Source: a virus
Strand: one strand, 5' to 3'
IMG/VR virus record: IMGVR_UViG_3300031566_000118
Span: 1-42,266 of that record
DNA: 42,266 nt
The notes beneath the pieces were generated by a model. It was not told the DNA's origin, searched no databases, and saw only the letters and a program-made list of their open reading frames with translations. The position numbers and the translations under genes were made by a program. Positions 3,031-24,296 of this stretch are shown piece by piece. Positions within the stretch are counted from its first letter, which is position 1, and every line of letters starts with the position of its first letter.

Positions 3031-3267
3031 GTGGCAATAGCAGATTGCAAATCATGTTTCTGGCATGAACAGAACGACAAAGCAAGCGCATGTTTTAATC
3101 CTTTATGGGACCCCAGATCGCAATTTGATATGAACAAACATTGCGATTATAAACCCATAATTGACCCTGATGAAGAGGTAGCTGTACGAACTATCTGTGG
3201 AACTCTCATGAGGGGTAAACATGGGAATCTAGGAACTTGCCCTAGAATGAGCGGTTTATGCGCGTAG
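3031..3267 (+). CDS. small Cys-rich protein, GTG start
   Basis: 78 residues with seven cysteines, starting CKSC at residues 6-9 and ending LCA. The spacing (CxxC, then single C plus HC, C, C, C) suggests one or two metal sites or a disulfide-rich domain. GTG at 3031 follows a weak GGGG site. It overlaps the next gene by 10 nt. Function unknown. Confidence 0.6.
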   Translation: MAIADCKSCFWHEQNDKASACFNPLWDPRSQFDMNKHCDYKPIIDPDEEVAVRTICGTLMRGKHGNLGTCPRMSGLCA

Positions 3268-4787
3268 CCCACTTTGCACAGTTCACCCCTAACCGTTCAG
3301 GTATGTATGAGACGGTTAGGGATATGATCTTTGCTGAGCGAATGTACGGCATTGATGCCCAATTCATTGATTGCAAGGGTAACTCGGAGCAGGGGCAGGA
3401 TTGTTGCCGTGTGGGGTTGCATGATAAGGACTTAGTGAGCGTAAGCCCTGAGTGGTCCTATAATGCAGATATTCTCATGCGGCACTCACTAGCCCCGGAT
3501 CCGATTATTAGGATCGGCATACCTGTCATTATGTGCTTACACGGCCGGCCGGAATACTCCTATATTCTGGAGCATAATAAGAAGTCGCCAGTCCTTACGA
3601 TCATGTCAAATGCTGAAGCTAATCCACGGTATAGGGCCTTTATTAGCTTTTGGCAGGAGCACAAGCCGTTTTGGGATATTATAGCGGGGCAGAAAAAAAC
3701 ATATTATATCCCTGCCCCAGTGGACCTAATTAAGTATAACCCAAAGGGCTTGACCTTTAATTTTGGGGATCTTAGCGGTAGCCCCAATATAATTATCGCG
3801 GATATTTGGAGAGAGGATATTACCCCATTCAATACTATCTTTGCCGTTGCACGATTTAAGGAACTATATTGTCCTACTGCGAAAGCGCAGGTGTTTGGTT
3901 GTCCTCCGCCGGGTGCTCCATATATTGCAAACTTGATACAGAGCCTAAGAAACAAGGGCATTGTGGGTGTTGCGGACGCTTTAGTGCCATTCATGCCAGA
4001 CGTTTACAGGGCAGGTGACATTTTGGTAACACCGCATAGAATTGCCACGCGGGTAGTTCGCGAGGCATTAGCATCAGGCTTGCCAATAGTCGCAGGAACA
4101 GGATGTTCTTATACGAATTATACGGCCGATGCTAGGGATACTGACGGATTCGCACAGGCTATCAATAATTGCTGGTTGGCTTTGCAGCGAGAGGATTTAC
4201 GCGGTGAGGCCCGGAAATTAGCCGAGCAGGAGTTCAATTATGAGAAGGTGGGACAAGCATTATTGAACATCTTCAATGAAGTGCTGGAAGCTGACTCGCA
4301 GACAATACCACAGAATGAGCCGATTGAATGGAGTGGATGGACCCTTGACCCGACCGATTGGATAATGCTCAGGGACATAATACGTGAGAGAGGATTAAAA
4401 CGAGTAGTTGAAATTGGCGCAGGGGCATCAACCATATTATTTGAGCGATTAGGTATGGAGGTTATCAGTTTTGAGACTAGGCCAGAAACCCTTCAAGAAG
4501 TGTTGCGGAAAACGCATCATGCCGATATTCGGCACTGGAACGGCCGCTATCTAAAGATAGATGAGGACTTTGACCTAGCCCTTATAGACGGTCCCTTTGG
4601 TGGGGAGAATCGAGAACCATCATATAAGGCAATCGCCAATAGTAGCATACCACTTGTGGCCTGCCACGACTCTAAACGGAAAGAGGATCAAGTCTGGATA
4701 GATAAATACTTTAGCACCTGGAAACAGATTGCAAAAAACGATGATTCTGTCCAGGGTTTAATCATATTTGAAAGGCCGAAAATATGA
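3258..4787 (+). CDS. GT-B glycosyltransferase fused to a SAM-methyltransferase-like domain
   Basis: 509 residues. Residues ~1-345 resemble a GT4-type GT-B glycosyltransferase: the N-terminal sugar-acceptor half begins MRVAHFAQFTPNRSGMYETV, and the donor-binding half has the family signature REALASGLPIVAGTG (~270-284). Residues ~365-509 look like a class I methyltransferase, with the SAM loop VVEIGAGAS (~383) and an acidic LALIDGPFGG segment. The product would transfer a sugar and may methylate it. It lies among virion genes, unlike an LPS locus, so virion or host-surface glycan modification is the likely role. Substrate unknown. Confidence 0.8.
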   Translation: MRVAHFAQFTPNRSGMYETVRDMIFAERMYGIDAQFIDCKGNSEQGQDCCRVGLHDKDLVSVSPEWSYNADILMRHSLAPDPIIRIGIPVIMCLHGRPEYSYILEHNKKSPVLTIMSNAEANPRYRAFISFWQEHKPFWDIIAGQKKTYYIPAPVDLIKYNPKGLTFNFGDLSGSPNIIIADIWREDITPFNTIFAVARFKELYCPTAKAQVFGCPPPGAPYIANLIQSLRNKGIVGVADALVPFMPDVYRAGDILVTPHRIATRVVREALASGLPIVAGTGCSYTNYTADARDTDGFAQAINNCWLALQREDLRGEARKLAEQEFNYEKVGQALLNIFNEVLEADSQTIPQNEPIEWSGWTLDPTDWIMLRDIIRERGLKRVVEIGAGASTILFERLGMEVISFETRPETLQEVLRKTHHADIRHWNGRYLKIDEDFDLALIDGPFGGENREPSYKAIANSSIPLVACHDSKRKEDQVWIDKYFSTWKQIAKNDDSVQGLIIFERPKI

Positions 4788-5227
4788 GTACCTTGTTTTG
4801 TGAGACAGGGACGAATCGCTTGGTTTATAAGGCAGAGAATTTCGGTACAGGAATCACCGTCACGGCATATATTTGGAATCCTAGTTTGACTAAATCAGCG
4901 GAGCAGACGTTTACCGAAGTGGAAGAAGGTCTTTATTATCTGGACTATAACTTTACAGTGGTTGGTACTTATTTCGGAAAATTCTATGAGGACGGAACCG
5001 CCAAGACCACCGGTGTCTTTAGAATCCCTGAAGTCGATAACGATGGAACTGCCATTTCACTAGCGGGTGCGTTTAAATTGGCGTTATCGGTCTTAGCGGG
5101 TGAATCGTCTGGGGGCGGTACTACCACAATAGTTTTCAGGGATATTGCCGACACGAAAAACAGAATATCAGCTACCGTTGACGCCTCAGGGAATCGAACC
5201 GCAGTAGGGACAAGAGATGCTACCTAA
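4784..5227 (+). CDS. phage structural accessory protein with Ig-like N-domain
   Basis: 147 residues, overlapping the previous gene by ATGA. The N-terminal ~90 residues form a small beta domain (VTAYIWNPSL ... GLYYLDYNF ... GTYFGKFYEDG). The C-terminal segment (FRDIADTKNRISATVDASGNR) is a motif I recognise from small proteins of tailed-phage structural clusters; its function is not established. TAATG overlaps the next gene. Confidence 0.65.
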   Translation: MSTLFCETGTNRLVYKAENFGTGITVTAYIWNPSLTKSAEQTFTEVEEGLYYLDYNFTVVGTYFGKFYEDGTAKTTGVFRIPEVDNDGTAISLAGAFKLALSVLAGESSGGGTTTIVFRDIADTKNRISATVDASGNRTAVGTRDAT

Positions 5228-5487
5228 TGGCAACTAAAATGAACGTCGGCTACTGGCAGGAGGATTATTTCCCTGATGGGTATTGGCAAGCACTTTATTG
5301 GCCTAGTTATGCTGAACCCCTTGCAAATTTTACAGCGGCAGCACGACATTTTGCATTTACGGCTAACACTAGAACCTTTTCATGGATTGGCAAGGTTAAG
5401 GTTTTTGCATTCACCAGCAAAGTTAAAACTATTGCGTTTACTACGCTTAAAAGAATCTATAATTTCATTACAAAGGAAGTATTATAA
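5227..5487 (+). CDS. aromatic/repeat microprotein of the virion cluster
   Basis: 86 residues. It begins with a Tyr/Trp-rich block (GYWQEDYFPDGYWQALYWPSY) of a kind seen in many phage structural clusters. It continues with short repeats of the form FxFTxxxRxFxW / FAFTxxVKxIAFT, each a likely beta hairpin with alternating aromatic and basic residues. The start overlaps the previous stop by TAATG and the stop overlaps the next start. Probably virion-associated; function unknown. Confidence 0.6.
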   Translation: MATKMNVGYWQEDYFPDGYWQALYWPSYAEPLANFTAAARHFAFTANTRTFSWIGKVKVFAFTSKVKTIAFTTLKRIYNFITKEVL

Positions 5488-5834
5488 TGCCAAACTTCCA
5501 AGGTACTGATTCGATAACGGTCCAACCGAATACGGCTGCAATGCCATACACGTTTACCTTTACGGTATGCAGTTCTGTAATAGCTAATGATGGGCAGTTA
5601 CCATACGGCACTAATATATCAGCTATAACAGTTACGGCACATACGAGTGATGGAACGGCAGATACCGACCTGATAAATGGCACCCCCAGTGTGGCGGCAA
5701 ATGTAGTGACGGTTGCTCTGGATTATCCGACTACCAATGGCGCGGGAACATATCATCTGACGTTTGTTTATACCTTGGATAGTGGCGCAAAAGACGAAGC
5801 CGATTTTAATCGTGTTCATGTAAAGGATAAATAA
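5487..5834 (+). CDS. Ig-like virion accessory protein
   Basis: 115 residues, almost all beta (PYTFTFTVC, ITVTAHTSDGTADTDL, TYHLTFVYTLDSGAKDEADFNRVHVKDK). The last strand pattern, 'GTYHLTFVYTLDSG', is typical of small Ig-like phage proteins. TAATG coupling on both sides places it in the same translational unit as its neighbours. Likely a head or tail decoration domain. Confidence 0.65.
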   Translation: MPNFQGTDSITVQPNTAAMPYTFTFTVCSSVIANDGQLPYGTNISAITVTAHTSDGTADTDLINGTPSVAANVVTVALDYPTTNGAGTYHLTFVYTLDSGAKDEADFNRVHVKDK

Positions 5835-6433
5835 TGCAAGCAGTAATATATACGCCCCCGGTACTAGAGCCTATCACGCAAGATGAAGCGAAAGAACACT
5901 TGCGGATTGAACAAACTGACGATATTGAAAACGATTATATTGATGCCATTATCAAAGCTGCCAGAGAGCACGTGGAAGATATTTGCCGGAGAGCCTTGCT
6001 AACTCAGGTGTGGGATTATTACCTTGACAAGTTCCCCGGGAATGATTTCATCAAGCTACCTTTTGGCAACCTGCAAGCTACCGGGCTAACCATTACATAT
6101 TACTCGGTTGATACCGATGATTCAAAAAAGACCAATACCTTAACCTTGACAAGCGACTACCTGATTGAGACTAATGGCGAGGCGTGTGGTAAAATCGTTT
6201 TACCGTATGGTGAAACATGGCCGAGTTTTACGGCATGGCCGACCCAGCCTGTTAAAATCCATTTCACTTGCGGGTGGACGACCAGAGCTTTGGTGCCATA
6301 CAAGATCAAGGCAGCTATCAAGATGCTGGCAGAGGATCTTTACAATATGAGAAGTGCTCAACATGTAGGGGTAACGGTAACTGAAAATAAAACTGTAATG
6401 GCTTTGCTCTCGCCATACAGAATCTGGGTTTAA
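5834..6433 (+). CDS. head-tail connector protein (phiE125 gp8 / HK97 gp6 type)
   Basis: 199 residues. The N-terminal PITQDEAKEHLRIEQTDDIENDYIDAIIKAAREHVEDICRRAL is the hallmark of phage head-tail connectors of the gp6/gp8 type, in which these helices form the ring below the portal. The C-terminal half has the usual YKIKAAIKMLAEDLYNMR helix. Length is normal for the phiE125 gp8 group. It is followed after 3 nt by the head-tail adaptor, the expected gene order. Confidence 0.88.
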   Translation: MQAVIYTPPVLEPITQDEAKEHLRIEQTDDIENDYIDAIIKAAREHVEDICRRALLTQVWDYYLDKFPGNDFIKLPFGNLQATGLTITYYSVDTDDSKKTNTLTLTSDYLIETNGEACGKIVLPYGETWPSFTAWPTQPVKIHFTCGWTTRALVPYKIKAAIKMLAEDLYNMRSAQHVGVTVTENKTVMALLSPYRIWV

Positions 6434-6436
6434 GCA

Positions 6437-6754
6437 ATGCAATCAGGTGAACTTAAAAAACTTATAACTCTTCAATATGAAACTAAAACGGCAGACGGGA
6501 TGGGATCGTTTACGGTAGTCTGGACTGATTTGGCAACTGTTTGGGCGGCTATCTGGCCGATATCTGCCAATGAAATAGTACAATCTATGCAGACTAATAT
6601 GATCATAAGCCATAGGGTCAGGATTCGATATAGAAGTGGGGTTCTTTCAAGCTGGAGAATCAAGTTCGGTGATCGCTATTTTAATATTGTGAGCATAATT
6701 AACCCTTCAGAACGAGGGGAATGGCTCGATATTATGGCAAAGGAGTCAACCTAA
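6437..6754 (+). CDS. head-tail adaptor (SPP1 gp16-like stopper)
   Basis: 105 residues with the standard pattern of this family: GELKKLITLQ at the N-terminus, DGMGSFTVVWTDLATVWAAIWPISANE in the middle, then HRVRIRYRSGV and a closing strand FNIVSIINPSERGEWLDIMAKE. These proteins plug the connector and mark the head-tail joint. It sits between the connector and the tail terminator as expected. Confidence 0.9.
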   Translation: MQSGELKKLITLQYETKTADGMGSFTVVWTDLATVWAAIWPISANEIVQSMQTNMIISHRVRIRYRSGVLSSWRIKFGDRYFNIVSIINPSERGEWLDIMAKEST

Positions 6755-6767
6755 GGAGATAGTATAA

Positions 6768-6998
6768 ATGTTTCTAAGTGTTAGGCATAAGCCATTGCAA
6801 AAAGAGGCATTACGACATTTTGTCATTAATAAGGATAATGATGAGGAGATCCCTCGCGTGATTTGGGCGAATGATGAAACAGGACGCTACCGGCAATATC
6901 TAATAGATAATGCAGGGAAGCTAATAGTCGAAAATGGGGAAATCAAAAGCAAGATATTTACTGGAAATATTGAATTGCGGAAAAGGAAGTCAACTTAA
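6768..6998 (+). CDS. small hypothetical phage protein of the head-tail joint region
   Basis: 76 residues with a core of ..DEEIPRVIWANDETGRYRQYLID.., a pattern seen in other small phage proteins next to head-tail adaptors. AAGGAGA (6754-6760) precedes the ATG, and the next gene starts on the base after its stop. Function unknown. Confidence 0.65.
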   Translation: MFLSVRHKPLQKEALRHFVINKDNDEEIPRVIWANDETGRYRQYLIDNAGKLIVENGEIKSKIFTGNIELRKRKST

Positions 6999-7427
6999 AT
7001 GCTCAATCTTACGACAGCTATAATAACAAAAGCTGCTGGATCTACTTTTTTGACCAGTATTGGTAGCCAATTACGTAACGGTAGGGCTGAAGATGATGAT
7101 GCTTATCCCTATTGTGTCTTTTTGCTTCCTGTATTTGGCGACCCTCAATCACTATCAACATTTGAGAGGGACTATAACGACATATTAATGCAGTTTTCAA
7201 TTTTTTCGGCACTGCATGCGCCATCTGAAGCTTGGACGATTTATGGATACCTAAAGGAACTTTATGATGATTGTACGCTAGAGACGCTTACTGGAGAGAC
7301 ACTAATTTTAATGGAGCGCCGAAATATACCACAACCAATACCAGAAGATCATACGATAAAGGGTGGCGGTTTGCAAAGGGTTTGGCACCTTCCTGTTGAA
7401 TATGGCATTGTAACGAAGCTCGATTAA
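6999..7427 (+). CDS. tail terminator / tail completion protein
   Basis: 142 residues of the small alpha/beta fold used by tail terminators: an N-terminal helix, then DAYPYCVFLLPVFGDPQ, a central strand LMQFSIFSA, a helix AWTIYGYLKELYDDC, and a final long strand after LILMERRNIPQP. This layout (helix, 'YPYVVF' strand, 'QFSIFS' strand, helix, C-terminal strand) is that of gp17/DUF3168-type completion proteins. The position before the tail tube supports it. Confidence 0.78.
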   Translation: MLNLTTAIITKAAGSTFLTSIGSQLRNGRAEDDDAYPYCVFLLPVFGDPQSLSTFERDYNDILMQFSIFSALHAPSEAWTIYGYLKELYDDCTLETLTGETLILMERRNIPQPIPEDHTIKGGGLQRVWHLPVEYGIVTKLD

Positions 7428-7440
7428 TTTAAGGAAATTT

Positions 7441-7644
7441 ATGGAAAAAGCTCTTTCACAAATCACCCGCGCAGAATGGATTGCTATTAACTGGATTGAG
7501 ATTGATCCGGTAATGGGTGGTGACAGCGGTGACAGAGTATTTATGGGTAACAACAAAAGAACGCCGGATGAGGCAGCGGAAGCGGCCATGGATTGGGATT
7601 CAACGATAGAGGAAAGAGAAGAATTTCAAGGCGTAGAGTTATGA
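7441..7644 (+). CDS. small acidic hypothetical protein
   Basis: 67 residues, acidic (EEREEFQGVEL at the end), with no recognisable motif. AAGGAA lies 5 bases before the ATG and the stop overlaps the next start by ATGA, so it is translationally coupled to the methyltransferase. It may belong to the inserted glycan-modification block rather than the virion set. Confidence 0.6.
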   Translation: MEKALSQITRAEWIAINWIEIDPVMGGDSGDRVFMGNNKRTPDEAAEAAMDWDSTIEEREEFQGVEL

Positions 7645-8306
7645 AAAATAAAAATATCATAGTAGCTCGGAACTTAATCAGATGCCTCGACCTCGACAGC
7701 CTCCGAAACGCAGAAGTTGTGGCAAATCTCGTGCGCTGTTTCGGGATTGTCGCATGGCCGCAGTCAACCGGCCCGGAAATGCAGTTCATTGTTCCTGTAG
7801 GAATAGCACAGACTCCCCAGCAGATCGCCAAGGCCCTTGTCTATGTGAGCCAATTTAAGATCACTTCATTCTGTGAGATCGGCGTCATGCACGGCGGAAA
7901 TTTTCTTTTCTGTTCGGAATATCTCCGGCGATTCAACTCAAATATTCGATGTATAGGCATTGATCCGGCGGATTGTCTTGACCCGGAGATCCGGGAGATT
8001 ATCGAAAAAGAGGTATGGTTGAGTTTCAAACCTTCCACAAGCGATGACATCGCGGGTATGATCTTCGATCTCATCTTCATTGACGGAGATCACACAATGC
8101 CCTGGCTCGTGAGGGACTGGGAGAATGTCGGGCGGCTTTCAAAGATATGCGCTTTTCATGACCTACAGGAGCCTACGTGTCCCGACGTGGCGGTATTTTG
8201 GGAAATACTAAACGGTGAAAATAAAGAGAAGTTTGAATTTCTTGACGATCCATCTGGGCGCAAGATACATGGGATCGGGATTATTCATGCAAAAGGAATC
8301 GAATGA
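7641..8306 (+). CDS. class I SAM-dependent methyltransferase (Methyltransf_24 / CmcI-like)
   Basis: 221 residues from the ATG at 7641, chosen because it overlaps the previous stop; an in-frame TTG at 7593 lies inside the previous gene. The SAM-binding loop CEIGVMHGGNF is at ~78-88, an acidic ribose-binding strand CIGIDPAD follows, and the post-motif IDGDHTMPWLVRDWE is at ~147-161. These motifs fit O-methyltransferases that act on sugars or small molecules. The stop overlaps the glycosyltransferase at 8303 by ATGA, so the two probably act in one pathway. Confidence 0.8.
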   Translation: MKNKNIIVARNLIRCLDLDSLRNAEVVANLVRCFGIVAWPQSTGPEMQFIVPVGIAQTPQQIAKALVYVSQFKITSFCEIGVMHGGNFLFCSEYLRRFNSNIRCIGIDPADCLDPEIREIIEKEVWLSFKPSTSDDIAGMIFDLIFIDGDHTMPWLVRDWENVGRLSKICAFHDLQEPTCPDVAVFWEILNGENKEKFEFLDDPSGRKIHGIGIIHAKGIE

Positions 8307-9637
8307 AAAATGTTCACCTTTTCATGCCGTTCACAAGGTACGAACTCTGGTCGAAATTGCTTGACGCATATCGGCCAATGAACGTGATTCTGCATCCGCT
8401 CACGTTCACGGGTACACCGCCGGTTGAATATTCTGAGGAATGGATTCAGCCCTTCGTTTACAACAAACCGAAATATGGTGACTTCGGAGTTCCCCTGCAC
8501 AACGCATTTATACGAGAATTTCCCATCGCCGATGATGACTATTATGTCCAAATGGCAGATGATGATATGTATGAGTCGGGGGTATTCGATTCTATCAGAA
8601 AACTCGATGATCCCGTGGTAATTATCTCCATGAAACGCGGAGATTGTGTTCCCCCCAACGCACTTCCAGAACGGGCATACCCGACAAATACCCTTCTGGC
8701 AAAACCCGAAAATATGGTTGTCGGAAAAGTAGGCGGTGAACAGGTCTTTATGAAGGGATCTGTTTTGAAACTAGTTCAGTATGATGAAAATTATCCGGCT
8801 ATCGCCGATGGATTGATGGCCGAATACCTCAAGACCATATATCCAATTCATTATGAACCAGACCTGTTTGCTCTTTTCAATTTCTATGAGCCTGGGCGAT
8901 GGGATAAAGGCGAAGCGAAGACGCACGGGAATACTGGTTTAAATGATAGCATGTTAAACATCCAATTTGGGGTGATGGTCAATGACCAAGTGCGTCTTGA
9001 TATGGTTCTCCGGCAATCGCAAATTAAAGGCAATATGCACTATCTCGACGAACCCGAATCAGCTACAAAGGGACTGAATAAACTCCTTGCCGTGATGGAG
9101 GCTGAAGGTGCGGACATAGCGGTCCTTTGTCACCAGGATATGTTTTTCCGGCACGATTGGATCAAGCAGGTTGAGGAACAATTGGCGAAACTACCCGATT
9201 CATGGCTTGTTGCCGGAGTTATCGGGAAGGATATGCGGGGACGGATATGCGGCAAATTTCATGCCATGCAGATCCCTCTTTACCATGATACTTCAGAGAT
9301 TCATAACTTTCCGGAACCCGCATGTTGTCTTGATGAATGCGTTCTTATTGTTAATCTTAAAAGGGGGTTTAGGTTTGATGAGGGCTTGGAAGGATTTGAT
9401 TTGTATGGAACATTAATTGTTTTGCAGGCATGGCAAATGGGTTTAACGGCTTGGGTTATCGATGCTTTTTGTGAGCATTATTCTTTGCGGCCACTTCCAT
9501 ATTTTCCAGATGAGTCATTTCGGAATGGTTTTAAATGGATTTATAACAAGTTCAATAAAAAAGTGATTAGGATTGATTCAACAGCAGCGGAATTTTCCGC
9601 AGAAAAAACAGAGCTTGAAACGCCAACGGCGGTATAG
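8303..9637 (+). CDS. two-domain GT-A glycosyltransferase
   Basis: 444 residues. Residues ~1-215 have a GT-A-like core with a DxD-type acidic motif in VQMADDDMYESGVF (~82-95). Residues ~225-430 resemble a second nucleotide-sugar domain with the phrase ADIAVLCHQDMFFRHDWIKQ (~270-290), as in GT2-like (Glyco_tranf_2_5-type) enzymes. Codon use and G+C are higher in the first two-thirds than in the last 300 bases, which are AT-rich, suggesting a mosaic origin. It is coupled to the methyltransferase upstream. Confidence 0.75.
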   Translation: MKNVHLFMPFTRYELWSKLLDAYRPMNVILHPLTFTGTPPVEYSEEWIQPFVYNKPKYGDFGVPLHNAFIREFPIADDDYYVQMADDDMYESGVFDSIRKLDDPVVIISMKRGDCVPPNALPERAYPTNTLLAKPENMVVGKVGGEQVFMKGSVLKLVQYDENYPAIADGLMAEYLKTIYPIHYEPDLFALFNFYEPGRWDKGEAKTHGNTGLNDSMLNIQFGVMVNDQVRLDMVLRQSQIKGNMHYLDEPESATKGLNKLLAVMEAEGADIAVLCHQDMFFRHDWIKQVEEQLAKLPDSWLVAGVIGKDMRGRICGKFHAMQIPLYHDTSEIHNFPEPACCLDECVLIVNLKRGFRFDEGLEGFDLYGTLIVLQAWQMGLTAWVIDAFCEHYSLRPLPYFPDESFRNGFKWIYNKFNKKVIRIDSTAAEFSAEKTELETPTAV

Positions 9638-9656
9638 AGGAATATAGTGGGAAGTA

Positions 9657-9719
9657 ATGTTTTTTGATGAAACGCAAGTTAATGAAGTGAACGTAATACA
9701 ACAATTAGGAGGGAAGTAA
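9657..9719 (+). CDS. possible 20-residue leader frame before the tail tube
   Basis: ATG at 9657 after a GGGAAG site opens a 20-codon frame (MFFDETQVNEVNVIQQLGGK) whose end lies in the ribosome binding site of the tail tube gene. It could couple translation of the tail tube, or be chance. Confidence 0.25.
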   Translation: MFFDETQVNEVNVIQQLGGK

Positions 9720-9720
9720 A

Positions 9721-10146
9721 ATGAAGATTTCAGGTAAAGCTGGGTATGTGATGTATGGCGGCAATACGATTGCCGAACTTACGGAATGGGCAATAACCGG
9801 AGTATCAATGGCGGTTATCAAAAAAGATCCTGCTTTTGCGGATACTGTCGTTGAAAAGATTGCTGATGGAGTTGCGGAACCCGGATCGGTTTCATTCAAA
9901 GGGAATTACGATCCGAATGATTCAACCGGTCAGACATTGTTAGCAGCAGCATGTAAGGCGGGGATTGGGATATACAATCTGTATCTCTACGCAGCCGCTG
10001 CTACCTGGTGGCATGTTGGTACTGGTGGCACAATCCTTATTAGCAAAGCAGATGCCGTCACGCTTCCAAGGAGTGGGATGGGAGTTATCGACTTTGCGGG
10101 AGAGGTTGAAGGCGCATGTATGGAGCAGGTAGGTACAGGATCATAA
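9721..10146 (+). CDS. major tail tube protein
   Basis: 141 residues. The opening SGKAGYVMYGGNTIAELTEWAITGVSM and the repeated pattern of strands with VSFKGNYDPNDSTGQ and an AGEVEGACMEQ close are characteristic of tube proteins of long non-contractile tails. A very strong AGGAGG site precedes it, as expected for an abundant virion protein. The tail chaperone gene with frameshift follows directly, which is the conserved order in siphoviruses. Confidence 0.85.
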   Translation: MKISGKAGYVMYGGNTIAELTEWAITGVSMAVIKKDPAFADTVVEKIADGVAEPGSVSFKGNYDPNDSTGQTLLAAACKAGIGIYNLYLYAAAATWWHVGTGGTILISKADAVTLPRSGMGVIDFAGEVEGACMEQVGTGS

Positions 10147-10170
10147 CAATAGCAGAAAGGAAATCTTATT

Positions 10171-10650: not shown

Positions 10651-10671
10651 AGTATGCTTCGTCTTGCGGAG
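10617..10671 (+). promoter_or_regulatory. programmed -1 ribosomal frameshift signal
   Basis: A AAA AAC (10617-10623) is read in the zero frame as xxA AAA AAC, the canonical slippery heptamer. Seven bases later a stem begins: 10631-10642 pairs with 10660-10671 over 12 bp (two G-U pairs) around a 17-nt loop. After slipping, the -1 frame is open from CTC at 10623 to the stop at 10943. All three elements (heptamer, spacer, stem) match known G/GT frameshift sites. Confidence 0.88.
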
Positions 10672-11358: not shown

Positions 11359-11359
11359 A

Positions 11360-12514
11360 GTGGCGCAATTCTCCGAAGAACATAGAAGAAAACTATCTGA
11401 GGCAGCGAAACGACGTTGGCAAGATCCTGAGTATTGCAAGGAAATGGCATCCATCGTGATAACGGATGAAGGCAGAAAGGCGATATCCGATAGCATGAAA
11501 GCTAGATGGCAAGATTCGGAATATAAAAAGAATCATCCGAAAGTTAATCTATCTGAATCAGCAAGGCGTAGTATATCTGAGAAAGCCAAAAAAAGATGGT
11601 CCGATCCTATATTTAAATCACGAGTAACAAAGAAAATAGGCAAAACAGCCAAGGAAGTTTGGGAACGACCTGGATACAAAGAAAAAATGTCCGAATCTTT
11701 AAGGGGATGTTGTGCTGGCGAAAAGAACCATATGTGGGGGAAAAAGCTATCAATAGAAGGTCGCAAAAAGCTAAGTGAGGCACATAAGGGAATCCAAGCT
11801 GGAGAAAATCATCCAATGTTCGGCAAACATCATTCTAATGAATCAAAACAGAAAATGAGTGAATCCCATAATGATTATCAATCTGGGGAAGGGCACCCGA
11901 TGTTTGGGAGGCATCATTCTGAAGACTCCAAAGCAAAGATAATCGCGGCTCATTTAGGCATCCCATTATCAGAGGAACATAAAAAGAAAATAGGAAAAGC
12001 CAGCAAGAGAGTTTGGGCAACAATAGATGAAGAAAAAAAGAAAGTATGGCGACAGAAAATAGGTGATGGCAACAAGGGAAAAATTATTTCTAAAGAATCC
12101 AGAGAAAAATTATCCAAAGCACACAAGAAACTTTGGGAAAACCCAGAACACGCAAAAAAATGCCTCGTTTTTAATTCTCCTAACAAGTGCGAAACTAAAC
12201 TTATGAATCTTTTGGATAAAATATATCCTGGCGAATGGAAATTTGTAGGGGACGGACAGGTTGTTATAGACGGGAAATGCCCTGATTTTATCAATATAAA
12301 TGGGAGGAAACAGATTATAGAGCTTTACGGCGAAAGATGGCACCAGGATGATGATCCGCAAGACAGGATCAATGTATTCAAACCATTTGGATATGATACC
12401 TTAATCATCTGGGTGAAAGAATTATCAAACAAAAAAAGGTTAGAGCGCACGCTTGTTACCTTTTGCCAAGGAGATCCTAACTTTTTGGTATTGGAAAAAG
12501 GAGGTTGTCGATAA
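11360..12514 (+). CDS. free-standing homing endonuclease, NUMOD3 repeats plus Vsr/EDxHD-like nuclease
   Basis: 384 residues, GTG start 2 nt after the previous stop. Residues ~1-270 contain many NUMOD3-type DNA-binding units, e.g. GENHPMFGKHHSNESKQKMS and GEGHPMFGRHHSEDSKAKI, and N-terminal 'RRKLSEAAKRRWQDPEY' units. Residues ~275-384 form a PD-(D/E)XK/Vsr-like nuclease: CETKLMNLLD, CPDFIN (acidic), IIELYGERWHQDD and a closing DTLIIWVKEL. AT-richer than its flanks. It splits the tail operon without an intron, so it is a mobile, free-standing endonuclease gene. It also supplies the ribosome binding site for the tape measure. Confidence 0.85.
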   Translation: MAQFSEEHRRKLSEAAKRRWQDPEYCKEMASIVITDEGRKAISDSMKARWQDSEYKKNHPKVNLSESARRSISEKAKKRWSDPIFKSRVTKKIGKTAKEVWERPGYKEKMSESLRGCCAGEKNHMWGKKLSIEGRKKLSEAHKGIQAGENHPMFGKHHSNESKQKMSESHNDYQSGEGHPMFGRHHSEDSKAKIIAAHLGIPLSEEHKKKIGKASKRVWATIDEEKKKVWRQKIGDGNKGKIISKESREKLSKAHKKLWENPEHAKKCLVFNSPNKCETKLMNLLDKIYPGEWKFVGDGQVVIDGKCPDFININGRKQIIELYGERWHQDDDPQDRINVFKPFGYDTLIIWVKELSNKKRLERTLVTFCQGDPNFLVLEKGGCR

Positions 12515-16473: not shown

Positions 16474-16692
16474 ATGGCACATAGCGAAAAATGTCCTGTC
16501 TGCAATGGCAAGGGTAAGGTTAAAAAGGAACAATGTCATGGGTGTCTTGGTTTAGGCTGGGTGACTGTGCAAGATCAGCTAATTATTAAAGAAACAGAAT
16601 GTGCAGTTGTTGTTGATGGTCACAGTATAGCCGACGCTATCATTGAACAATATAATAATGGTCATCAAGGATTGAGATCAATCTGGCAGTAG
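16474..16692 (+). CDS. zinc-finger microprotein carrying a copy of the tape-measure C-terminus
   Basis: 72 residues. Residues 7-30 hold two DnaJ-type CxxCxGxG units (CPVCNGKG and CHGCLGLG), which bind zinc. Residues ~45-72 repeat the last 28 residues of the tape measure with 21 identities (VVVDGHSIADAIIEQYNNGH, then GLRSIWQ). AAGGAG precedes the ATG. The shared tail suggests that both proteins dock to the same partner, perhaps the tail tip or the chaperone complex, with this protein as an assembly factor. Function is an inference. Confidence 0.75.
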   Translation: MAHSEKCPVCNGKGKVKKEQCHGCLGLGWVTVQDQLIIKETECAVVVDGHSIADAIIEQYNNGHQGLRSIWQ

Positions 16693-16701
16693 GATTGAAT
16701 T

Positions 16702-17121
16702 ATGGCTGAAATTGAAATGTATGACTACTTAGCGACGATTGCGGCTGACAATAACCAGACGTTAACAGTTAGCCCCCGGAAGGTCATTGTTGAGACTGGC
16801 TATAAGAATCAAGTCATCCACAAGATGGATGATAATAGCGAAGAGAGGATTGATTTTGGCACTGCTAACATATCAGAGTTTGATGTGACACTTCCATTTA
16901 CCTCTCTAACCGCATCAGACGCAGGAACCTTAATGTTATTCTGGCATAATAGCGGTTATGGCAATGGATGTACTAAAACCTTTAAATGGGCTCATCCTGA
17001 AGATACTCATACTTATGTAATCAGGTTTGATTGTGATTTACCACGAGCCATTAAATATTATGGAGAACATGAAATAGCCAATGTAAAAATAAAAGTCTTA
17101 GGTAGGATAGCAGACGCATAA
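16702..17121 (+). CDS. minor tail protein, distal tail region
   Basis: 139 residues, beta-rich: RKVIVETGYKNQVIHKMDDNSEERIDFGTA, then a strand pair and FKWAHPEDTHTYVIRFDCDLPRAIKYYGEHEIANVKIKVLGR. The terms 'KW..P.D..TYVVRF' and a closing strand pair are typical of distal-tail or DUF2460-like proteins that join the tube to the tip. It overlaps the next tail tip gene by one base (TAATG). Confidence 0.65.
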   Translation: MAEIEMYDYLATIAADNNQTLTVSPRKVIVETGYKNQVIHKMDDNSEERIDFGTANISEFDVTLPFTSLTASDAGTLMLFWHNSGYGNGCTKTFKWAHPEDTHTYVIRFDCDLPRAIKYYGEHEIANVKIKVLGRIADA

Positions 17122-19652
17122 TGGCTGTAACCTTTGGTGCAAATCAAATCACTATCGCAGCTTCAAGATATAAGCTGGTGTCATGGTTATTTACTATTAC
17201 CACAACAGCTACCGCCGATCCTCCAGCAGGGAACGCATACCCTTGGTCACACAAGGCAATTATTTATGATGCACAACCTTATACGGCCAAGATTGACCTT
17301 GAATCGATTGTAGTCACTCTCACTCGTGGTAAATCCGAACTCGGGCTTGTCACCCCTAATAGCCTGAAATTCCGATTTACAAATGCTGGAAACACTTACA
17401 CCTCTGCTAAACTTCGGGGTGCCGCTGTGCTTGTTAAACTCGTTGTCAGTGATGGCACCCTCACTGAAATTATGAGGACATGGCGGTTTCGGGTAAAGAA
17501 GGCCGAGGGCGCATATCAGTGGATGAATGTCGAGTGTGAGGATTTTGTGCAGCAATATATCAAAGGCGATTATCCTAACACGCCACTTGTAAAAAATTTA
17601 TGGTATTCCATTGATCCTGATGCCAAAGGGATCAATGATACTCTTTCCATTCCTATCCCATTCGGGACTTGTTATGTGCCGTTAAGATCGGTCTATATTA
17701 GCGCGGATACTGCGCGGTATTATGTGCTCGGCCCCAGTGCCCATACCTATACAATTACAGAAGTCCGATCTCCAAGAGCATGGGGCGCAAAACGCGTATG
17801 GGCAAGTGGTGACGGCTATGCATTTACCCAATCCACGAAAACAGGAAGTGACGGAAATACTTATGATGTATTTCAGCCAATAATCGCAGATAGCGATTCG
17901 GATACTGTTGCTGACGCGAATGGTCTATGGCGGGAAGGTGAGCGATTTTTGGATATGCCCACCAAGTTTAGTCGTGATGATACCTCTGCATTAACCGCCC
18001 CTGGCGATGTTATCGAGTTTGTTCTAGAAGACATGGGAGTGCCTTCTGCTGATATTAATACTGGCGCAGGTTCAACTTTTGCGACTGCCAATACCGTCTA
18101 TTCGGGATGGTCGCTCGCTTATAATGGCGGGTATTTCTACAAGCAAGATAGAGCCGAAGTCATATCACAACTCCTCTATCAGTGCCATTCCTGCTTCCAG
18201 GTCACCGATAAACTTGAACTACATGTGCTATCAAAGGACTCACAAGCAACCCTCACGAAAGCAAATGTAATTCGGCAGGTCAAACAACCAGGGCAAAGAG
18301 AGGGTAAAGGGGAAGGCAGTTTCAAGTATTCTTTGCTTGATCCATCCCTTGAAGATGCGGGTAATGTGGCATATCAGGAAGCAGGGGAAGCACAAGATGA
18401 ATTTCATAAAATCATAGTACCGACTGTTGACGGGGGTACACCTACTCAATATGCGGCAGAAACGATTATTTGCAATATGGTCTCGGATAGCCAGGATGTT
18501 CAGCGAATAGGGACGTTATACTTTCAGCGCAAACTTGAAAAGGATGGCATGGCATCGTTTAAGGCCGGGGGATTCAACCTTGACTTACAACCGAATGATG
18601 TAATTACCCTCAATCATGCTGATTATGGTGGTAACTATGCGGTGCTGATGGATACGATGACTATCCATTATGACCTATCCATTGACATGAAGTGCATTAA
18701 GTATGCTGTAGCCTTAGAGGATTGGGCAGGTGTTAACCCTGGTGCGATAACAATTGCTATTGACGCTGGCGCTACTTACTGGACGTCAGTTATAGTAGGG
18801 CCAGATGCTTCCGTATCATCTGGCACAATGCCCAATCTTCTTCCTGGCCGTCTTAAAGTGGGGGATGCCACAAACTATATCCTCTTTGATCCTTTCATTC
18901 CCATAATGAGTTTTTATCAGGGGGCACAAATAAGGGTCAAAGTTGGGGATTTAGGAACGGGCGATTATGGAGTTGAATTTCTAGATTCTTCTGGCAATTC
19001 CATTCTGAAGCTTGATGGCTCTGGTGGCAATATCCTAGCTGGGTGGACAGTGGATTCCAATAAATTCACCTGTGACAGTGGTGCGGTGGGCCTGAATAGT
19101 GAAGTAACTGGAGGAACTGACTGGCGCATCTGGGCAGGACACGCAACGCCGGGAAGCGCACCTTTCAGAGTTGATGAAAACGGCAACCTTTATGCCACAT
19201 CAGCCATTATCCAGGGGATCATCACGGCAGGCGAGATCCACATCCCGGATCAGGACGTAACAGGTGAGAGTTTTCATGTCCAGCCGGACGGGGATTCCTG
19301 GTGGGGCTGCACCGAAACCGAGTTCAACGCCGATCCTGATAACGCCCTTGCCTATATTCTGAAGACCGGGATTGCAAAGTTTCAAAATGTGGCCCTGGGT
19401 GCCACGGTGGGTGGGGCGGTGGAGCTCGGTTATACCAACATGGATACCTTTATTATCAATTTCGATGAGGATGATGTAGATGTCGAACTGCGTTTCGCCA
19501 GGACTACCGGCGGTGCTGCAAGTATCACCTGGAACGGTGCCCTGGTACAGTGCAGCAAGGCTTTAAAACCGGTGGATCTCGGCATCAATAACATATCAGC
19601 CAGTGCACCTGGCACGCCGTTTGCTGGTCAAGTTTGGCTAGATGTATCATAG
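17121..19652 (+). CDS. tail tip / baseplate hub and fibre protein
   Basis: 843 residues. The first ~560 resemble a hub-type tip protein with many strands and a 'LQPNDVITLNHADYGG' turn late in the hub. The part from ~595 resembles the central-fibre tails of siphoviruses: FLDSSGNSILKLDGSGGN, WTVDSNKF, GGTDWRIWAGHATPGSAPFRVDENGNLYATSAIIQG. These motifs fit the connecting domains of host-recognition fibres. From ~19195 to its end the gene is visibly richer in G+C than the rest, so the fibre end may have been exchanged by recombination. Confidence 0.75.
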   Translation: MAVTFGANQITIAASRYKLVSWLFTITTTATADPPAGNAYPWSHKAIIYDAQPYTAKIDLESIVVTLTRGKSELGLVTPNSLKFRFTNAGNTYTSAKLRGAAVLVKLVVSDGTLTEIMRTWRFRVKKAEGAYQWMNVECEDFVQQYIKGDYPNTPLVKNLWYSIDPDAKGINDTLSIPIPFGTCYVPLRSVYISADTARYYVLGPSAHTYTITEVRSPRAWGAKRVWASGDGYAFTQSTKTGSDGNTYDVFQPIIADSDSDTVADANGLWREGERFLDMPTKFSRDDTSALTAPGDVIEFVLEDMGVPSADINTGAGSTFATANTVYSGWSLAYNGGYFYKQDRAEVISQLLYQCHSCFQVTDKLELHVLSKDSQATLTKANVIRQVKQPGQREGKGEGSFKYSLLDPSLEDAGNVAYQEAGEAQDEFHKIIVPTVDGGTPTQYAAETIICNMVSDSQDVQRIGTLYFQRKLEKDGMASFKAGGFNLDLQPNDVITLNHADYGGNYAVLMDTMTIHYDLSIDMKCIKYAVALEDWAGVNPGAITIAIDAGATYWTSVIVGPDASVSSGTMPNLLPGRLKVGDATNYILFDPFIPIMSFYQGAQIRVKVGDLGTGDYGVEFLDSSGNSILKLDGSGGNILAGWTVDSNKFTCDSGAVGLNSEVTGGTDWRIWAGHATPGSAPFRVDENGNLYATSAIIQGIITAGEIHIPDQDVTGESFHVQPDGDSWWGCTETEFNADPDNALAYILKTGIAKFQNVALGATVGGAVELGYTNMDTFIINFDEDDVDVELRFARTTGGAASITWNGALVQCSKALKPVDLGINNISASAPGTPFAGQVWLDVS

Positions 19653-19664
19653 AAAGGAGAAAGT

Positions 19665-20936
19665 ATGATTTCTATCCTGACACCCGTGCATAAAGCATCA
19701 GAGCAATATCTTAGTGAGGCTTATGAATCTTTGACGACGCAAACCCTTCCAGATTGGGAATGGATAATAATAACTAATGGAGGTGGTACAGTCTCTGAAG
19801 ATTTAATAAGAGATAAGAAGATCAAAATCTTTCCAGTTGAGGATGATGATCCTAAAGGAGAATATAACTGCATTGGCCGTCTTAAAAAATATGCTGCTTC
19901 TCAGGCTCAGGGAGAAATCCTGGTGGAGCTGGATGCCGACGATATCCTGATGCCGGATAGCCTGGAGGAGATCCGCAGGGCCTTTGAAGACCCGGCCGTG
20001 GCCATGGTGTATTCCAACAGCGCGGAGTTCAAGCAGGAGACCTGGGAGAGTTCAGCTTATTCCAACTATTGGGGCTGGCAGTCCCGGCCGTTCTTCTATA
20101 ACGGTCACAAATTGCAGGAGATGCTCGCCTGGCCTCCGGGGCCCCACATGATGCGGTTTATCTTCTGGGCCCCGAACCATGTGAGGGCCTGGCGCAAGGG
20201 CGCCTATGACGCGATCGGCGGCCATAACGAGAAGCTGAAGACCGGGGACGATCATGAACTCTGCTGCCGCTTTTATGCGGAATACGGGGCGCGAGGCATG
20301 AGGCATATTGATAAGTGCCTGTACCTCTACCGGGTCCACGACGGGAATTCCTGCCGGGTCTATAATAACGACGTGCAGGTACAGACCCTGCAAAACTATC
20401 TCAAATTCAGCCGGTCCATGGCCGTCCGCTGGGCAAGGGATGAAGGGCTGCGGCTCATTGACCTTGGCGGCCAGTTTAATCCGTGGGCCGGGTTCGAGAC
20501 CGTTGATCTCGTAAATGCGGAGATCTCCGCGGATCTCAACAAAAAATGGCCTTTTAAAAACAGCAGCGTGGGGGTGATCAAGGCCTCCCATGTGTTCGAG
20601 CACCTGAAGGATCCGGTCCATACCATGAACGAGGCCTATCGCGTGCTGGCACCGGGCGGGTGGCTCTTTATCGAGGTGCCTTCCACGGATGGCCGCGGGG
20701 CCTTCCAGGATCCGGGCCATGTCTCGTTCTGGAACCAGAACTCGATCTGGTACTACACAAATCGAAATTATTCCCGTTTTATCCCGGGCTATAAGGGACG
20801 GTTTCAGAACAGCCGCACGGTCACGTATTTCCCGACCGAGTTTGAGAAGAATAACAACATCCCTGTCGTACAGGCGGACCTGATCGCCTTGAAACCGCCA
20901 TACGATGAACGCCCTGTTGGAGAGGTATTGATTTAA
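19665..20936 (+). CDS. GT-A (GT2-like) glycosyltransferase fused to a class I methyltransferase
   Basis: 423 residues. Residues 1-~245 are a GT2 domain: MISILTPVHKASEQYLSEAY, the DxD motif LVELDADDILMPDS (~87-100) and the late GGHNEKLKTGDDHELCCRF acceptor segment. Residues ~260-423 are a methyltransferase: LIDLGGQFNPW, ISADLNKKWPF, HVFEHLKDP and YRVLAPGGWLFIEVPS (the post-SAM motif). The first 250 bases are AT-rich and the rest strongly GC-rich. It lies directly before the collagen-like fibre, so that fibre is an obvious candidate substrate. Confidence 0.85.
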   Translation: MISILTPVHKASEQYLSEAYESLTTQTLPDWEWIIITNGGGTVSEDLIRDKKIKIFPVEDDDPKGEYNCIGRLKKYAASQAQGEILVELDADDILMPDSLEEIRRAFEDPAVAMVYSNSAEFKQETWESSAYSNYWGWQSRPFFYNGHKLQEMLAWPPGPHMMRFIFWAPNHVRAWRKGAYDAIGGHNEKLKTGDDHELCCRFYAEYGARGMRHIDKCLYLYRVHDGNSCRVYNNDVQVQTLQNYLKFSRSMAVRWARDEGLRLIDLGGQFNPWAGFETVDLVNAEISADLNKKWPFKNSSVGVIKASHVFEHLKDPVHTMNEAYRVLAPGGWLFIEVPSTDGRGAFQDPGHVSFWNQNSIWYYTNRNYSRFIPGYKGRFQNSRTVTYFPTEFEKNNNIPVVQADLIALKPPYDERPVGEVLI

Positions 20937-21106
20937 TATGAACAATTAGGGTTCTTCGGACGGTAGGCCAACCAGAAGAAGACGCAAGAAAGAATTAAGG
21001 GCGGCAGTGAGGTGCCTCGCCATCTCATTGTTGCCCTTTTTCTTTGCCCTGAAAGAACACAACAGAATGCCACAGAGACTCAGGAGTCATGAGGTCTTGA
21101 TTTAAT
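20922..21106 (+). repeat. 169-bp segment between near-identical 16-bp repeats
   Basis: GAGGTATTGATTTAAT (20922-20937) at the end of the glycosyltransferase gene recurs as GAGGTCTTGATTTAAT (21091-21106) at the start of the collagen gene. Without the 169-bp interval the two genes would overlap as TAATG. The segment carries a terminator and no protein gene. Confidence 0.6.
20997..21045 (+). terminator. strong intrinsic terminator before the collagen-like gene
   Basis: 20997-21011 pairs with 21024-21038 over 15 bp (three G-U pairs) around a 12-nt loop, and the stem is followed by TTTTTCTTT (21037-21045). It is the best Rho-independent terminator in the + operon and should separate tail-tip transcription from the collagen fibre gene. 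Confidence 0.8.
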
Positions 21107-24100
21107 GGCCATATTGAAGATCAGAAATGCAGCGAACGACGCCTGGTATGAGCTGAGCGGCGCCCAGGGTGATATCGGCCCACAGGGGCCGCAGGGCTTT
21201 CAGGGCGTTGTCGGTGCACAGGGCGATCAGGGGGTGGTCGGCAATCAGGGCGCCCAGGGCGTGACAGGAGCGCAGGGATCGACAGGCGCCCAAGGGTCGA
21301 CAGGCGCACAGGGCGACCAGGGTGTTGCCGGCGCAACAGGTGCACAGGGCGCCCAGGGGATCGCAGGAGCACAAGGATCGCAGGGACCGCAGGGTGTTGT
21401 AGGAGCGCAGGGCGATGAGGGCGCAACCGGCGCAACAGGTGCACAGGGCGCCCAGGGGATCGCAGGAGCACAAGGATCGCAGGGACCGCAGGGTGTTGTA
21501 GGAGCGCAGGGCGATGAGGGCGCAACCGGCGCAACAGGCCCGCAGGGTACGCAGGGGGCGACAGGTACCCAGGGCTCGCAGGGGCCGCAAGGAAGTGTAG
21601 GTGCTCAGGGCGATGAAGGTGCAACAGGAGCAACAGGAGCTCAAGGTAACCAAGGCATTCCTGGAGCTCAGGGTAGTGTAGGTGCACAAGGTTCAGTAGG
21701 TGCACAAGGCGATGAGGGAGCTACAGGTGCAACTGGATCTCAGGGTGCACAAGGAATTACAGGTGCGCAAGGTTCACAGGGTCCGCAAGGCGTCGTAGGG
21801 GCTCAAGGCGATGAGGGTGCAACTGGAGCGACAGGATCTCAAGGTGATCAGGGAGCAACAGGTGCTCAAGGATCTATCGGTGCACAAGGATCAGTTGGTG
21901 CTCAAGGATTCCAAGGTGTAACAGGTGCAACAGGTGCTCAGGGTAATCAAGGAGTAACTGGTGCACAAGGAAGTATTGGTGCACAGGGAAGCCAAGGACA
22001 CCAAGGATTCCAAGGATCTACAGGAGCTACTGGATCACAAGGTACACAAGGTGTAGCTGGTGCACAAGGTTCAACTGGAGCTCAAGGTTCGGTAGGCGCT
22101 CAAGGATTTCAGGGAGATACTGGACCTGCGGGAGCAGAAGGTATTGTATGGCAAGGTACATGGAACAGTGAAACAACTTATGTAATTGATGACGCCGTAG
22201 CCGAGGGCGGGACATCTTATATATGTATTTTAGGACATACTAATCACCAACCTCCGAATGCAACATACTGGCATATTTTATCTTTAGAAGGTGCACAAGG
22301 ATCAACTGGCCCACAAGGTTCAGTCGGAGCACAAGGAAATCAAGGTGCAACCGGCGCCCAAGGTGCTACAGGATCTCAAGGTTCTCAAGGTGCAACTGGA
22401 GCAGTTGGTGCTCAGGGATTACCTGGGGATCAAGGATTTCAAGGTGCTACAGGTGTTCAAGGAGCTCCAGGCGCTCAAGGATCACAGGGTGAAACAGGAA
22501 CAACAGGTGCTCAAGGATCTGTCGGAGCTCAAGGCTTTCAAGGAGCTACTGGAGTTCAAGGTGCACCAGGTGCACAAGGAAGCCAAGGTGCGACTGGTGC
22601 CACAGGCGCTCAGGGATCAGTAGGCACTCAAGGTGATCAAGGTGATACGGGATCACAAGGTGCAACTGGATCTCAAGGAAGTCAGGGGGCTACGGGTGCA
22701 ACAGGGGCACAAGGCTCGGTGGGGCCACAAGGATTTCAGGGTTTAACAGGTACACAAGGAGCTACGGGATCACAGGGCGCTCAGGGAGCAACAGGTTCTA
22801 CGGGTGCACAGGGATCTGTAGGTGCACAAGGTGATCAGGGCGACGAAGGAGCTCAAGGTGCTACAGGAACTCAAGGAAGTCAAGGAGCCACTGGCGCGAC
22901 AGGAGCTCAAGGATCGACAGGTGCTCAGGGATTTCAAGGAGTTACGGGTGCACAAGGAATAACTGGTGCACAGGGATCGCAAGGTGCAACTGGCGCAACG
23001 GGCGCTCAGGGTTCCACAGGACCTCAAGGATTTCAAGGTTTAACAGGAGATCAGGGAGCCACTGGTTCACAGGGTAGTCAAGGTGCAACAGGGGATATAG
23101 GTGCTCAAGGTCCAACTGGAGCACAGGGTAATCAGGGTGCTACAGGATCACAGGGAGCTACAGGTGCGCAAGGCAGTCAAGGAAATGTAGGAGCACAAGG
23201 ATCTACAGGAACACAGGGTGCACAAGGGGCTACAGGATCAGAAGGTGCGCAGGGAGCTCAAGGTGCACAAGGAGCTCAAGGACTCCTTGGTGATACACTT
23301 GCACATTCAGTTACGATTAGTGATACTGGCAGTATACATTCCATGGGAAAGGATACTTATGATAGCATTGTACCTGGATTCATCCTTGGGTATGATGTAG
23401 ATGCTTACAAATTAAAAGTTGGTAGTCCAACATCAAATTTAGATTGGGATGGAAACGAGCTTACAATACTCGGTGCTGTAACAGCAGATTCTTTTGAATC
23501 AACCCTTTATGGTGACCTCACCCAAGCAATGTCGTATGTAAAAACTGTCCTTGGTGCTGGAGATGAATATAATCATGATTTAACTGATACAGATTTATCA
23601 GATGGAACAGAAAGTAATATAAATGCTGATACTCATCTTGATTATGGAGTTTCGATTAGATTAGCCACGCAAAAAGAATGGGATGATGTAGGAGCTGTTT
23701 GGGATACAGGTACATGGGATGTACCAATCGATTCTTCGGGAGATTGGACATCAGCATCAATAGATTTAGGAGCTCTCCAAACCTTACAACTTGGAATGCG
23801 TTTTATTTTAGAAGAAGAAGTCCCAGCATCTACTGATGTTATCATTTTTCTACAATATTCTATAGATGGTGTCGACTGGGGAGCAAACAGTCCAGACTTT
23901 GATGATACTAACTGGGAAACCTTAGTTCAAACATTACTAACAGGAAAAGTATATAAAGCTACTGGAGCTGTTTATACTTTCAGATACTTTAAGTTAAAAA
24001 TAGAGCTTGCAACAACAGTTACTACAGATGAAATAGTTTTGCATATGATGACATACTTGGGAAATGTTGTAAATCTTTTCCAAGAATTCACAGCTCAAAC

Positions 24101-24296
24101 TATAGCAGCGGGTGGAACAGTTTTCTCATTAGGTGATTTTAATTCAGCTCCTGCTATAACAGTAACTCCAGTAGGATCAACAGTTCTAGTTCCTTTGATT
24201 ACTACGCAGTCAGAATTAAGTGTAACTATAAAACTGTATAATTTAGCAGGAAATGATGTAGGCGGTATTGCTAATATAAATATTATAGGTGTGTAG
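21105..24296 (+). CDS. collagen-like tail fibre with internal carbohydrate-binding-like module
   Basis: 1063 residues. Residues ~18-727 are Gly-x-y triplets ([18 protein letters not shown]), which form a collagen triple helix. They are broken once at ~343-395 by a globular piece, [20 protein letters not shown] then [22 protein letters not shown], which resembles CBM5/12 or chitin-binding-type modules. Residues ~728-1063 form a C-terminal globular domain, probably the trimerisation and receptor-binding head. The N-terminal [17 protein letters not shown] should attach to the tail. The triplets contain many Thr, possible glycan sites. Codon choice changes within the repeat near 21600. Confidence 0.85.
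21333..21530 (+). repeat. 99-bp tandem duplication within the collagen repeat
   Basis: 21333-21431 is followed by a nearly exact copy at 21432-21530 (33 codons, starting GCAACAGGTGCACAGGGCGC). It is a recent duplication and shows that the number of triplets can change by unequal recombination. Confidence 0.85.

Follow-up and report, generated by a model that had tools for sequence, protein, structure and literature searches.

The window examined here is the whole of a linear IMG/VR record (IMGVR_UViG_3300031566_000118; 42,266 bases), which from its gene content is a stretch of the late genes of a temperate tailed phage. Our subject is the gene at 19665, whose predicted product joins a family-2 glycosyltransferase (GT2) to a methyltransferase (MT), and its relationship with the collagen-like fibre gene that follows it. 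Three genes make up the locus:

17121..19652, + strand: tail protein, 843 amino acids (aa), with a PHROG tail fibre match at residues 666-707
19665..20936, + strand: GT2-MT, 423 aa, with GT2 at residues 3-148 and a class I methyltransferase at about 281-343 (Pfam)
21105..24296, + strand: collagen-like tail fibre, 1063 aa, the proposed substrate (Pfam Collagen, 7.8e-102; tail fibre PHROGs)

The GT2-MT gene starts 12 bases past the end of the tail protein gene, and 168 bases separate it from the fibre gene. Its GT2 domain was matched by Pfam PF00535 (1e-13, 52 bits, cut-off 23.3), and its methyltransferase domain by both PF13489 (2e-9, 37.8 bits, cut-off 27) and PF08241 (2.5e-9, 38.1 bits, cut-off 21.2). 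The metal-binding residues D90, D92, D93 and D196 are invariant across 42 aligned family members, and an AlphaFold2 model of the protein (predicted local distance difference test score, pLDDT, 94.4) retrieved GT-A enzymes in Foldseek at E values of 1e-11 to 1e-14, including SpsA and chondroitin polymerase. These comparisons confirmed the protein as a family-2 glycosyltransferase fused to a class I S-adenosylmethionine-dependent methyltransferase, with the activity itself a prediction. They also bore out the statement of a first-pass annotation of this DNA that such a fusion lies directly before a collagen-like fibre.

The 222 Gly-X-Y triplets of the fibre fall into two runs (residues 19-348 and 396-731), divided by a short non-repeat insert at about 347-394, within which residues 352-380 gave a below-threshold Pfam match to CBM_5_12, and followed by a C-terminal domain that is also non-repeat. 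The fibre had been described as having many Thr in Gly-x-Thr triplets, which is true of 60 of the 222, but its main feature is Gly-x-Gln, at 122 (Gln at 55% and Thr at 27% of Y positions; the triplets include GAQ, 59, GAT, 37, and GSQ, 22). Set against BclA/BclA3-type collagens, the fibre has the long Gly-X-Y region and the adjoining glycosyltransferase gene, and Thr is not its main Y residue. As for the tail protein upstream, other phages have a counterpart of its C-terminus (residues 689-841 or so) directly ahead of GT2-MT, blastp aligning it at 45% with L003/L004 (689-841), 64% with L086 (775-840) and 42% with L088 (749-841), and this stretch is a probable fibre-docking adaptor.

The association of GT2-MT with collagen extends far beyond the window. 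Relatives found with a four-row alignment were kept from viral contigs (80 of 132) and from one-per-species bacterial genomes (80 of 133), and these records are cited below, where they must be told apart, by L and G numbers. Linkage was counted for full-length GT2-MT genes after removal of copies above 90% identity, with a repeat being at least 10 uninterrupted triplets (8 for the window count, gene-neighbourhood maps, class samples and multi-collagen loci) and linkage a repeat within 2 kb; because greedy calling of open reading frames (ORFs) errs in GC-rich DNA, these and all later counts rest on tblastn and six-frame repeats. By this measure 44 of 62 bacterial and 11 of 31 viral GT2-MT genes had a collagen repeat within 2 kb, as did 15 of 22 and 9 of 15 when dereplicated at 60% identity. 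Repeat coverage at 0-1, 1-2, 2-4, 4-7 and 7-10 kb from the gene was 9.9, 15.4, 4.7, 1.6 and 0.00% in bacteria, and 7.7, 10.4, 2.0, 1.3 and 0.35% in viruses. None of the nine relatives with only the methyltransferase domain had collagen within 2 kb, and three of the 11 single-domain glycosyltransferase relatives did. In an 84-row tree the collagen-linked genes occurred throughout, with phages interspersed among bacteria, and the linked genes came from Actinomycetota, Pseudomonadota, Bacteroidota, Chlorobiota and Planctomycetota (class and phylum names here being taken in part from record titles and the tree listing), plus the phage-like contigs L086-L088. The nearest collagen was on the same strand and upstream for 28 bacterial and five viral genes, on the same strand and downstream for eight and four, and on the opposite strand for nine and one; that gene order varies while the collagen company is kept argues for a functional link.

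Genomes sampled by class, without regard to collagen, gave a similar picture, although the samples include their centres and GT2-MT genomes already met (G006, G827). Among 296 genomes from the class of Saccharopolyspora flava (GT2-MT at 1e-25, Pfam Collagen at 1e-7), 17 had GT2-MT and 118 had collagen; collagen was present in all 17 of the former versus 101 of the 279 without the gene (p=8e-8, or 2e-7 without the centre), and a Gly-X-Y run was within about 3 kb of GT2-MT in 15 of the 17, the exceptions being G033 and G036, in the latter of which both matches are near contig ends. The class of the Acidimicrobiaceae record L109 (247 genomes) had GT2-MT in six and collagen in 58, with collagen in six of six GT2-MT genomes versus 52 of 241 others (p=1e-4; 6e-4 without the centre) and a repeat within 3 kb of the gene in five of the six. 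A third sample, from the class of a Mucilaginibacter genome, had GT2-MT in just one of 395 genomes, namely its centre.

Based on this linkage, the 19665 enzyme quite likely modifies the adjoining collagen-like fibre, and it probably does so by adding a methylated sugar; the fibre glycosylation proposed in the first-pass annotation is to that extent strongly supported for 19665, though neither its Thr argument nor its four-gene scheme held up. Several observations weigh against the fibre being the substrate. No repeat was found within 2 kb of 18 of the 62 bacterial and 20 of the 31 viral genes, some of them at contig ends, and many GT2-MT-free genomes of the sampled classes also hold collagen, as the counts of 101 and 52 above attest. 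Thirteen virus records with GT2-MT, some near-copies of each other, were taken as having no adjacent repeat (in one, L041, a collagen ORF does lie 1.9 kb away); nine of them hold collagen elsewhere, and four show none at all. The isolate S-CRM01 carries GT2-MT and three collagen genes, but its GT2-MT sits among metabolic genes, far from its fibres. Conversely, a full-length GT2-MT was beside none of 80 viral collagens (a pattern-based sample of short stretches), so that most viral collagens do without GT2-MT. Some contigs start inside a collagen gene beside GT2-MT (e.g., L090, L096, L098, L107, L109, L110, L116 and L124), and for this reason more pairs are probably hidden by assembly breaks. 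In L375, L376 and L377 (G113, G185 and G051) two GT2-MT genes of the same contig face each other near one collagen gene.

In phages the pairing has the appearance of a unit. The upstream genes of L004 (L003 is seemingly the same phage) match no window protein, and yet it has the adaptor stretch, a GT2-MT (60%) and a 1013-aa collagen-like fibre in the window's order; the trio is repeated, again behind upstream genes unlike the window's, in L086, a contig of a Phenylobacterium metagenome-assembled genome (MAG), and in L088, of an Anaerolineaceae MAG, both with phage-like genes, while in L011 and L087 a collagen ORF directly follows GT2-MT and the upstream genes differ. Together with the window, these five make up a single clade (support 99/98), with collagen directly downstream in six of six, and the adaptor, GT2-MT and fibre genes would move between phages as a single cassette. 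A single ORF joining collagen and GT2-MT in L161 was not used, as it seems to be frameshifted at its C-terminal end and is followed by a transposase-like ORF. Directly upstream of the L005 GT2-MT, which is extended at its N-terminus by about 325 aa with no Pfam match, is an RmlD-type sugar reductase gene (L005:8061-9023, 1.5e-53), hinting at a deoxysugar, for example rhamnose. A gene with tetratricopeptide repeats (TPR) lies between collagen and GT2-MT in L110 (2213-2956) and L116 (4635-5252), and its product is possibly a substrate-recruiting partner.

The collagens in question share a composition as well as a neighbour. In Actinobacteria, Gln occupied 52% of Y positions in GT2-MT-linked collagens versus 14% in GT2-MT-free genomes of the class (p=5e-11; 34 of 40 background loci had enough repeat for this comparison), with Lys and Glu depleted, whereas Thr was at 17% versus 13% (p=0.32) and was rejected as a mark of linked collagens. 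At least 40% Gln at Y was found in 10 of 14 linked bacterial collagens, reduced at 60% identity, versus two of the 39 background loci of 40 with enough repeat for this test (p=2e-6), and in eight of eight linked viral collagens, likewise reduced, versus eight of 80 (p=5e-6) from a pattern-based background sample of at least 80 loci, in which the median Gln at Y was 12% (n=80). Published averages for this share (PMC3368898, Table 4) put viruses at 13.0%, Gram-positive bacteria at 18.4% and the prophage collagens of E. coli at 14.5%. The 69 linked collagen entries were reduced by shared sequence to 64 distinct ones, many with repeats cut by contig ends; their median Gln share of Y was 53%, and only Gln reached five per 100 triplets in all 64 (Thr did so in 53, Ser in 42, Ala in 58 and Pro in 52). 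Single-domain glycosyltransferase relatives in other phages adjoin repeats with 52-61% Gln at Y, evidence that it is the GT2 domain and not the methyltransferase that follows Gln. Counter to this signature, Gln at Y is down to 17-26% in five linked collagens, of which four carry 52-71% Thr, and L399 has 6% Gln and 89% Thr. In multi-collagen genomes, the collagens not adjacent to GT2-MT were Gln-poor (0-21%) in one group (L349-L352, L356, L358-L360, L363, L366, L368, L370) and had 27-81% Gln in another (L353-L355, L361, L362, L364, L365, L367, L369, L371, L372), some of these at contig ends. A prediction that glycosyltransferase families would be enriched beside Gln-rich viral collagens lacking GT2-MT, relative to Gln-poor ones, failed: no glycosyltransferase family was among the 25 families listed of 61 in the Gln-rich set (18 loci, 87 ORFs), the Gln-poor set (29 loci, 131/132 ORFs) had four GT2 and two GT9 among the 25 listed of 81, and models of the two GT2-MT domains matched nothing in either set.

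With the fibre as substrate, the foremost alternative to Gln is that the sugar is placed on Thr or Ser, as in BclA3, and that Gln simply gives a stable, uncharged helix. This has a real chance of being correct, if a little short of an even one, given the 60 window triplets that end in Thr, the Thr-rich and Gln-poor linked collagens of L116, L139, L151 and L399, the activity of the spore enzyme SgtA on Thr and Ser as reported in PMC7157674, and the 48% Thr at Y listed for Gram-positive collagens (PMC3368898). It is difficult to reconcile, however, with the failure of Thr to separate linked from background collagens, which overturned the earlier argument from Gly-x-Thr triplets, or with linked repeats that have little or no Ser/Thr: the L374 collagen has none in 44 triplets, that of L387 about three per 100, and L401, beside a glycosyltransferase-domain relative, consists of 22 triplets, all of them GPQ, GFQ or GIQ. 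By exclusion, Gln is the best single candidate for the acceptor. The fullest form of the proposal, that GT2-MT is a collagen glutamine glycosyltransferase that in phages and in bacteria of at least five phyla places a sugar, subsequently methylated, on the Y-position Gln of Gly-X-Gln and so stabilises helices that lack hydroxyproline, is put forward tentatively, as possible rather than probable.

A further reading, in which the target is a partner protein or some part of the fibre outside the repeat and Gly-x-Gln serves as a docking site only, is unlikely. The end domains do differ among linked collagens, L110 and L116 do encode the TPR protein, and the composition test covered the repeat; but the lineages have the repeat composition in common and, it seems, little of the end domains, and the single-domain relatives adjoin the same kind of repeat.

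The first-pass annotation had counted four genes with glycosyltransferase and/or methyltransferase domains, two of them fusions, and joined them in one system for the fibre. The three besides 19665 are:

3258..4787, + strand: probable glycosyltransferase group 1 (Pfam 22.9 bits, below the cut-off of 27; weak NCBIfam matches)
7641..8306, + strand: Methyltransf_24 methyltransferase (Pfam 29.1 bits, cut-off 26.3)
8303..9637, + strand: protein of unknown family with a GT-A-like second half, directly before the major tail protein gene at 9721

The count stands for the 19665 fusion and the 7641 methyltransferase; a second fusion did not emerge, the glycosyltransferase match of 3258 being under the cut-off and its C-terminus methyltransferase-like by eye with no Pfam match. 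The 8303 protein had no match in Pfam, PHROG or NCBIfam, and its AlphaFold2 model from the single sequence had a pLDDT of 33; residues 273-395 match the solved structure 2qgi ('ATP synthase subunits region ORF 6', 1e-6), which we take to be glycosyltransferase-like with a GT-A fold. That all four form one virion glycosylation pathway is decidedly improbable, notwithstanding the presence of four such genes among the structural genes of one phage and the precedent of mycobacteriophages with glycosylated capsids and tail tubes (cited in PMC12619734), and a four-gene system for the fibre was rejected: tblastn with the 3258, 7641 and 8303 proteins found nothing in 50,697 phage records, nothing ties these three genes to the fibre, and L007 keeps 7641 and 8303 but has other genes in place of 3258. 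The search of viral contigs produced one relative of 3258 (L009, 45% over residues 1-344) and, for 8303, only near-identical copies. Gene 3258 is in the head/neck region, its L009 relative is likewise among what look like structural genes, and 7641 and 8303 together directly precede the major tail protein gene; judged by position only, the three could act on capsid or tail-tube proteins.

Least probable of all is that the enzyme modifies host surface glycans, for superinfection exclusion or serotype change, and adjoins the fibre since both concern the host surface, for although this is the usual reading of phage glycosyltransferases (e.g., PMC7029224) and polysaccharide-building GT2 enzymes are among the Foldseek neighbours, it leaves unexplained the chromosomal copies beside collagen genes in several phyla and the Gln signature that they share.

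Late-gene markers elsewhere in the window start at 5834 (head-tail adaptor), 6437 (head closure), 9721 (major tail protein, phrog_158) and 12575 (tape measure), with an integrase at 31656; no terminase, portal or capsid gene was recognised in the 42,266 bases, and for that reason the window is probably incomplete. Contig L002 encodes the 19665 protein and those of the adjoining genes with 99-100% identity. The proteins of L007 are about 100% identical to the window's from 5487 to the L007 end, and its upstream genes differ from those at 105-4787, indicating that the module that holds 3258 was swapped. Other features are:

11360-12514: NUMOD3 homing-endonuclease-like ORF, between tail genes (Pfam/PHROG)
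16474-16692: 72-aa ORF, whose C-terminus repeats the tape measure end (64% over 33 aa)
29528-30637, + strand: TnpB RNA-guided endonuclease (NCBIfam, 1e-85)
39756-40847: ORF combining ParB-like and DNA methyltransferase parts

The 131-aa ORF that immediately precedes TnpB (29132-29527) may be its TnpA, the two making up an IS200/IS605-type insertion between the late genes and the integrase.

To return to the fibre as substrate, in the host cell the GT2 domain would use a nucleotide sugar as donor to glycosylate the fibre chain, and the methyltransferase domain would O-methylate the added sugar, forming a cap that resembles the methylated sugars of spore collagens. The attachment point would, less surely, be the Y position of Gly-X-Y, here mostly Gln and partly Thr; in a triple helix the Y residues are exposed, and the sugars of known collagens are attached to them. 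Such decoration would stabilise or shield a low-Pro fibre, or tune host contact. To our knowledge, a Gln-linked sugar on collagen would be unlike any known collagen modification; rare Gln-sugar precedents make the chemistry possible, though unproven. More broadly, GT2-MT relatives beside Gln-rich collagens suggest that microbial collagens are decorated in a way that is both widespread and unstudied, and our literature search, which left most subscription journals outside, found no paper linking a GT2-methyltransferase fusion to collagen-like proteins. A recognisable enzyme family with a defined partner, Gly-X-Gln collagen, makes the substrate guessable from sequence and testable. Should the acceptor be Gln, collagen modifications would gain a new class, one that might also serve to make stable recombinant collagens without prolyl hydroxylase. 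On the phage side, the trio would be an exchangeable fibre cassette that modifies itself.

Most annotations of phage glycosyltransferases name DNA or host glycans as the target; virion glycosylation of mycobacteriophages was reportedly described by Freeman in 2023. Of the spore collagens, BclA has methylated sugars, Thr-based repeats and a multi-enzyme pathway, the last two unlike the case of the fibre. In the mycobacteriophages, phage glycosyltransferases do act on virion proteins, but these are the capsid and tail tube and not a collagen fibre (cited in PMC12619734). The hexosylation of Gln in mycoplasma lipoproteins indicates that bacteria can carry sugar on this residue, although it is described as having no sequence specificity and does not involve collagen (PMC4657876). 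Mimivirus L230, like 19665, is a two-domain viral enzyme, and it modifies a viral collagen; by the published account, however, it is a lysyl hydroxylase and a glucosyltransferase on hydroxylysine, while GT2-MT-linked collagens hold little Lys (PMC9614988). BclA of the Bacillus cereus group resembles the fibre as a collagen-like surface protein that bears sugar side chains (PMC8968730). Closest in arrangement is SgtA of Clostridioides difficile spores, which is encoded immediately upstream of bclA3, and, as in the 19665/fibre pair, its gene adjoins that of a collagen-like protein, in this instance a substrate modified on Gly-X-Y by addition of N-acetylglucosamine (GlcNAc) to Thr of collagen-repeat peptides (PMC7157674). 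It differs in placing GlcNAc on Thr/Ser, in belonging to a spore and not a phage, and in that the available account mentions no methyltransferase domain (PMC7157674). Likened by gene arrangement and not by sequence, SgtA and BclA3 are nonetheless the closest worked-out case in which the gene of a glycosyltransferase lies next to that of its collagen substrate.

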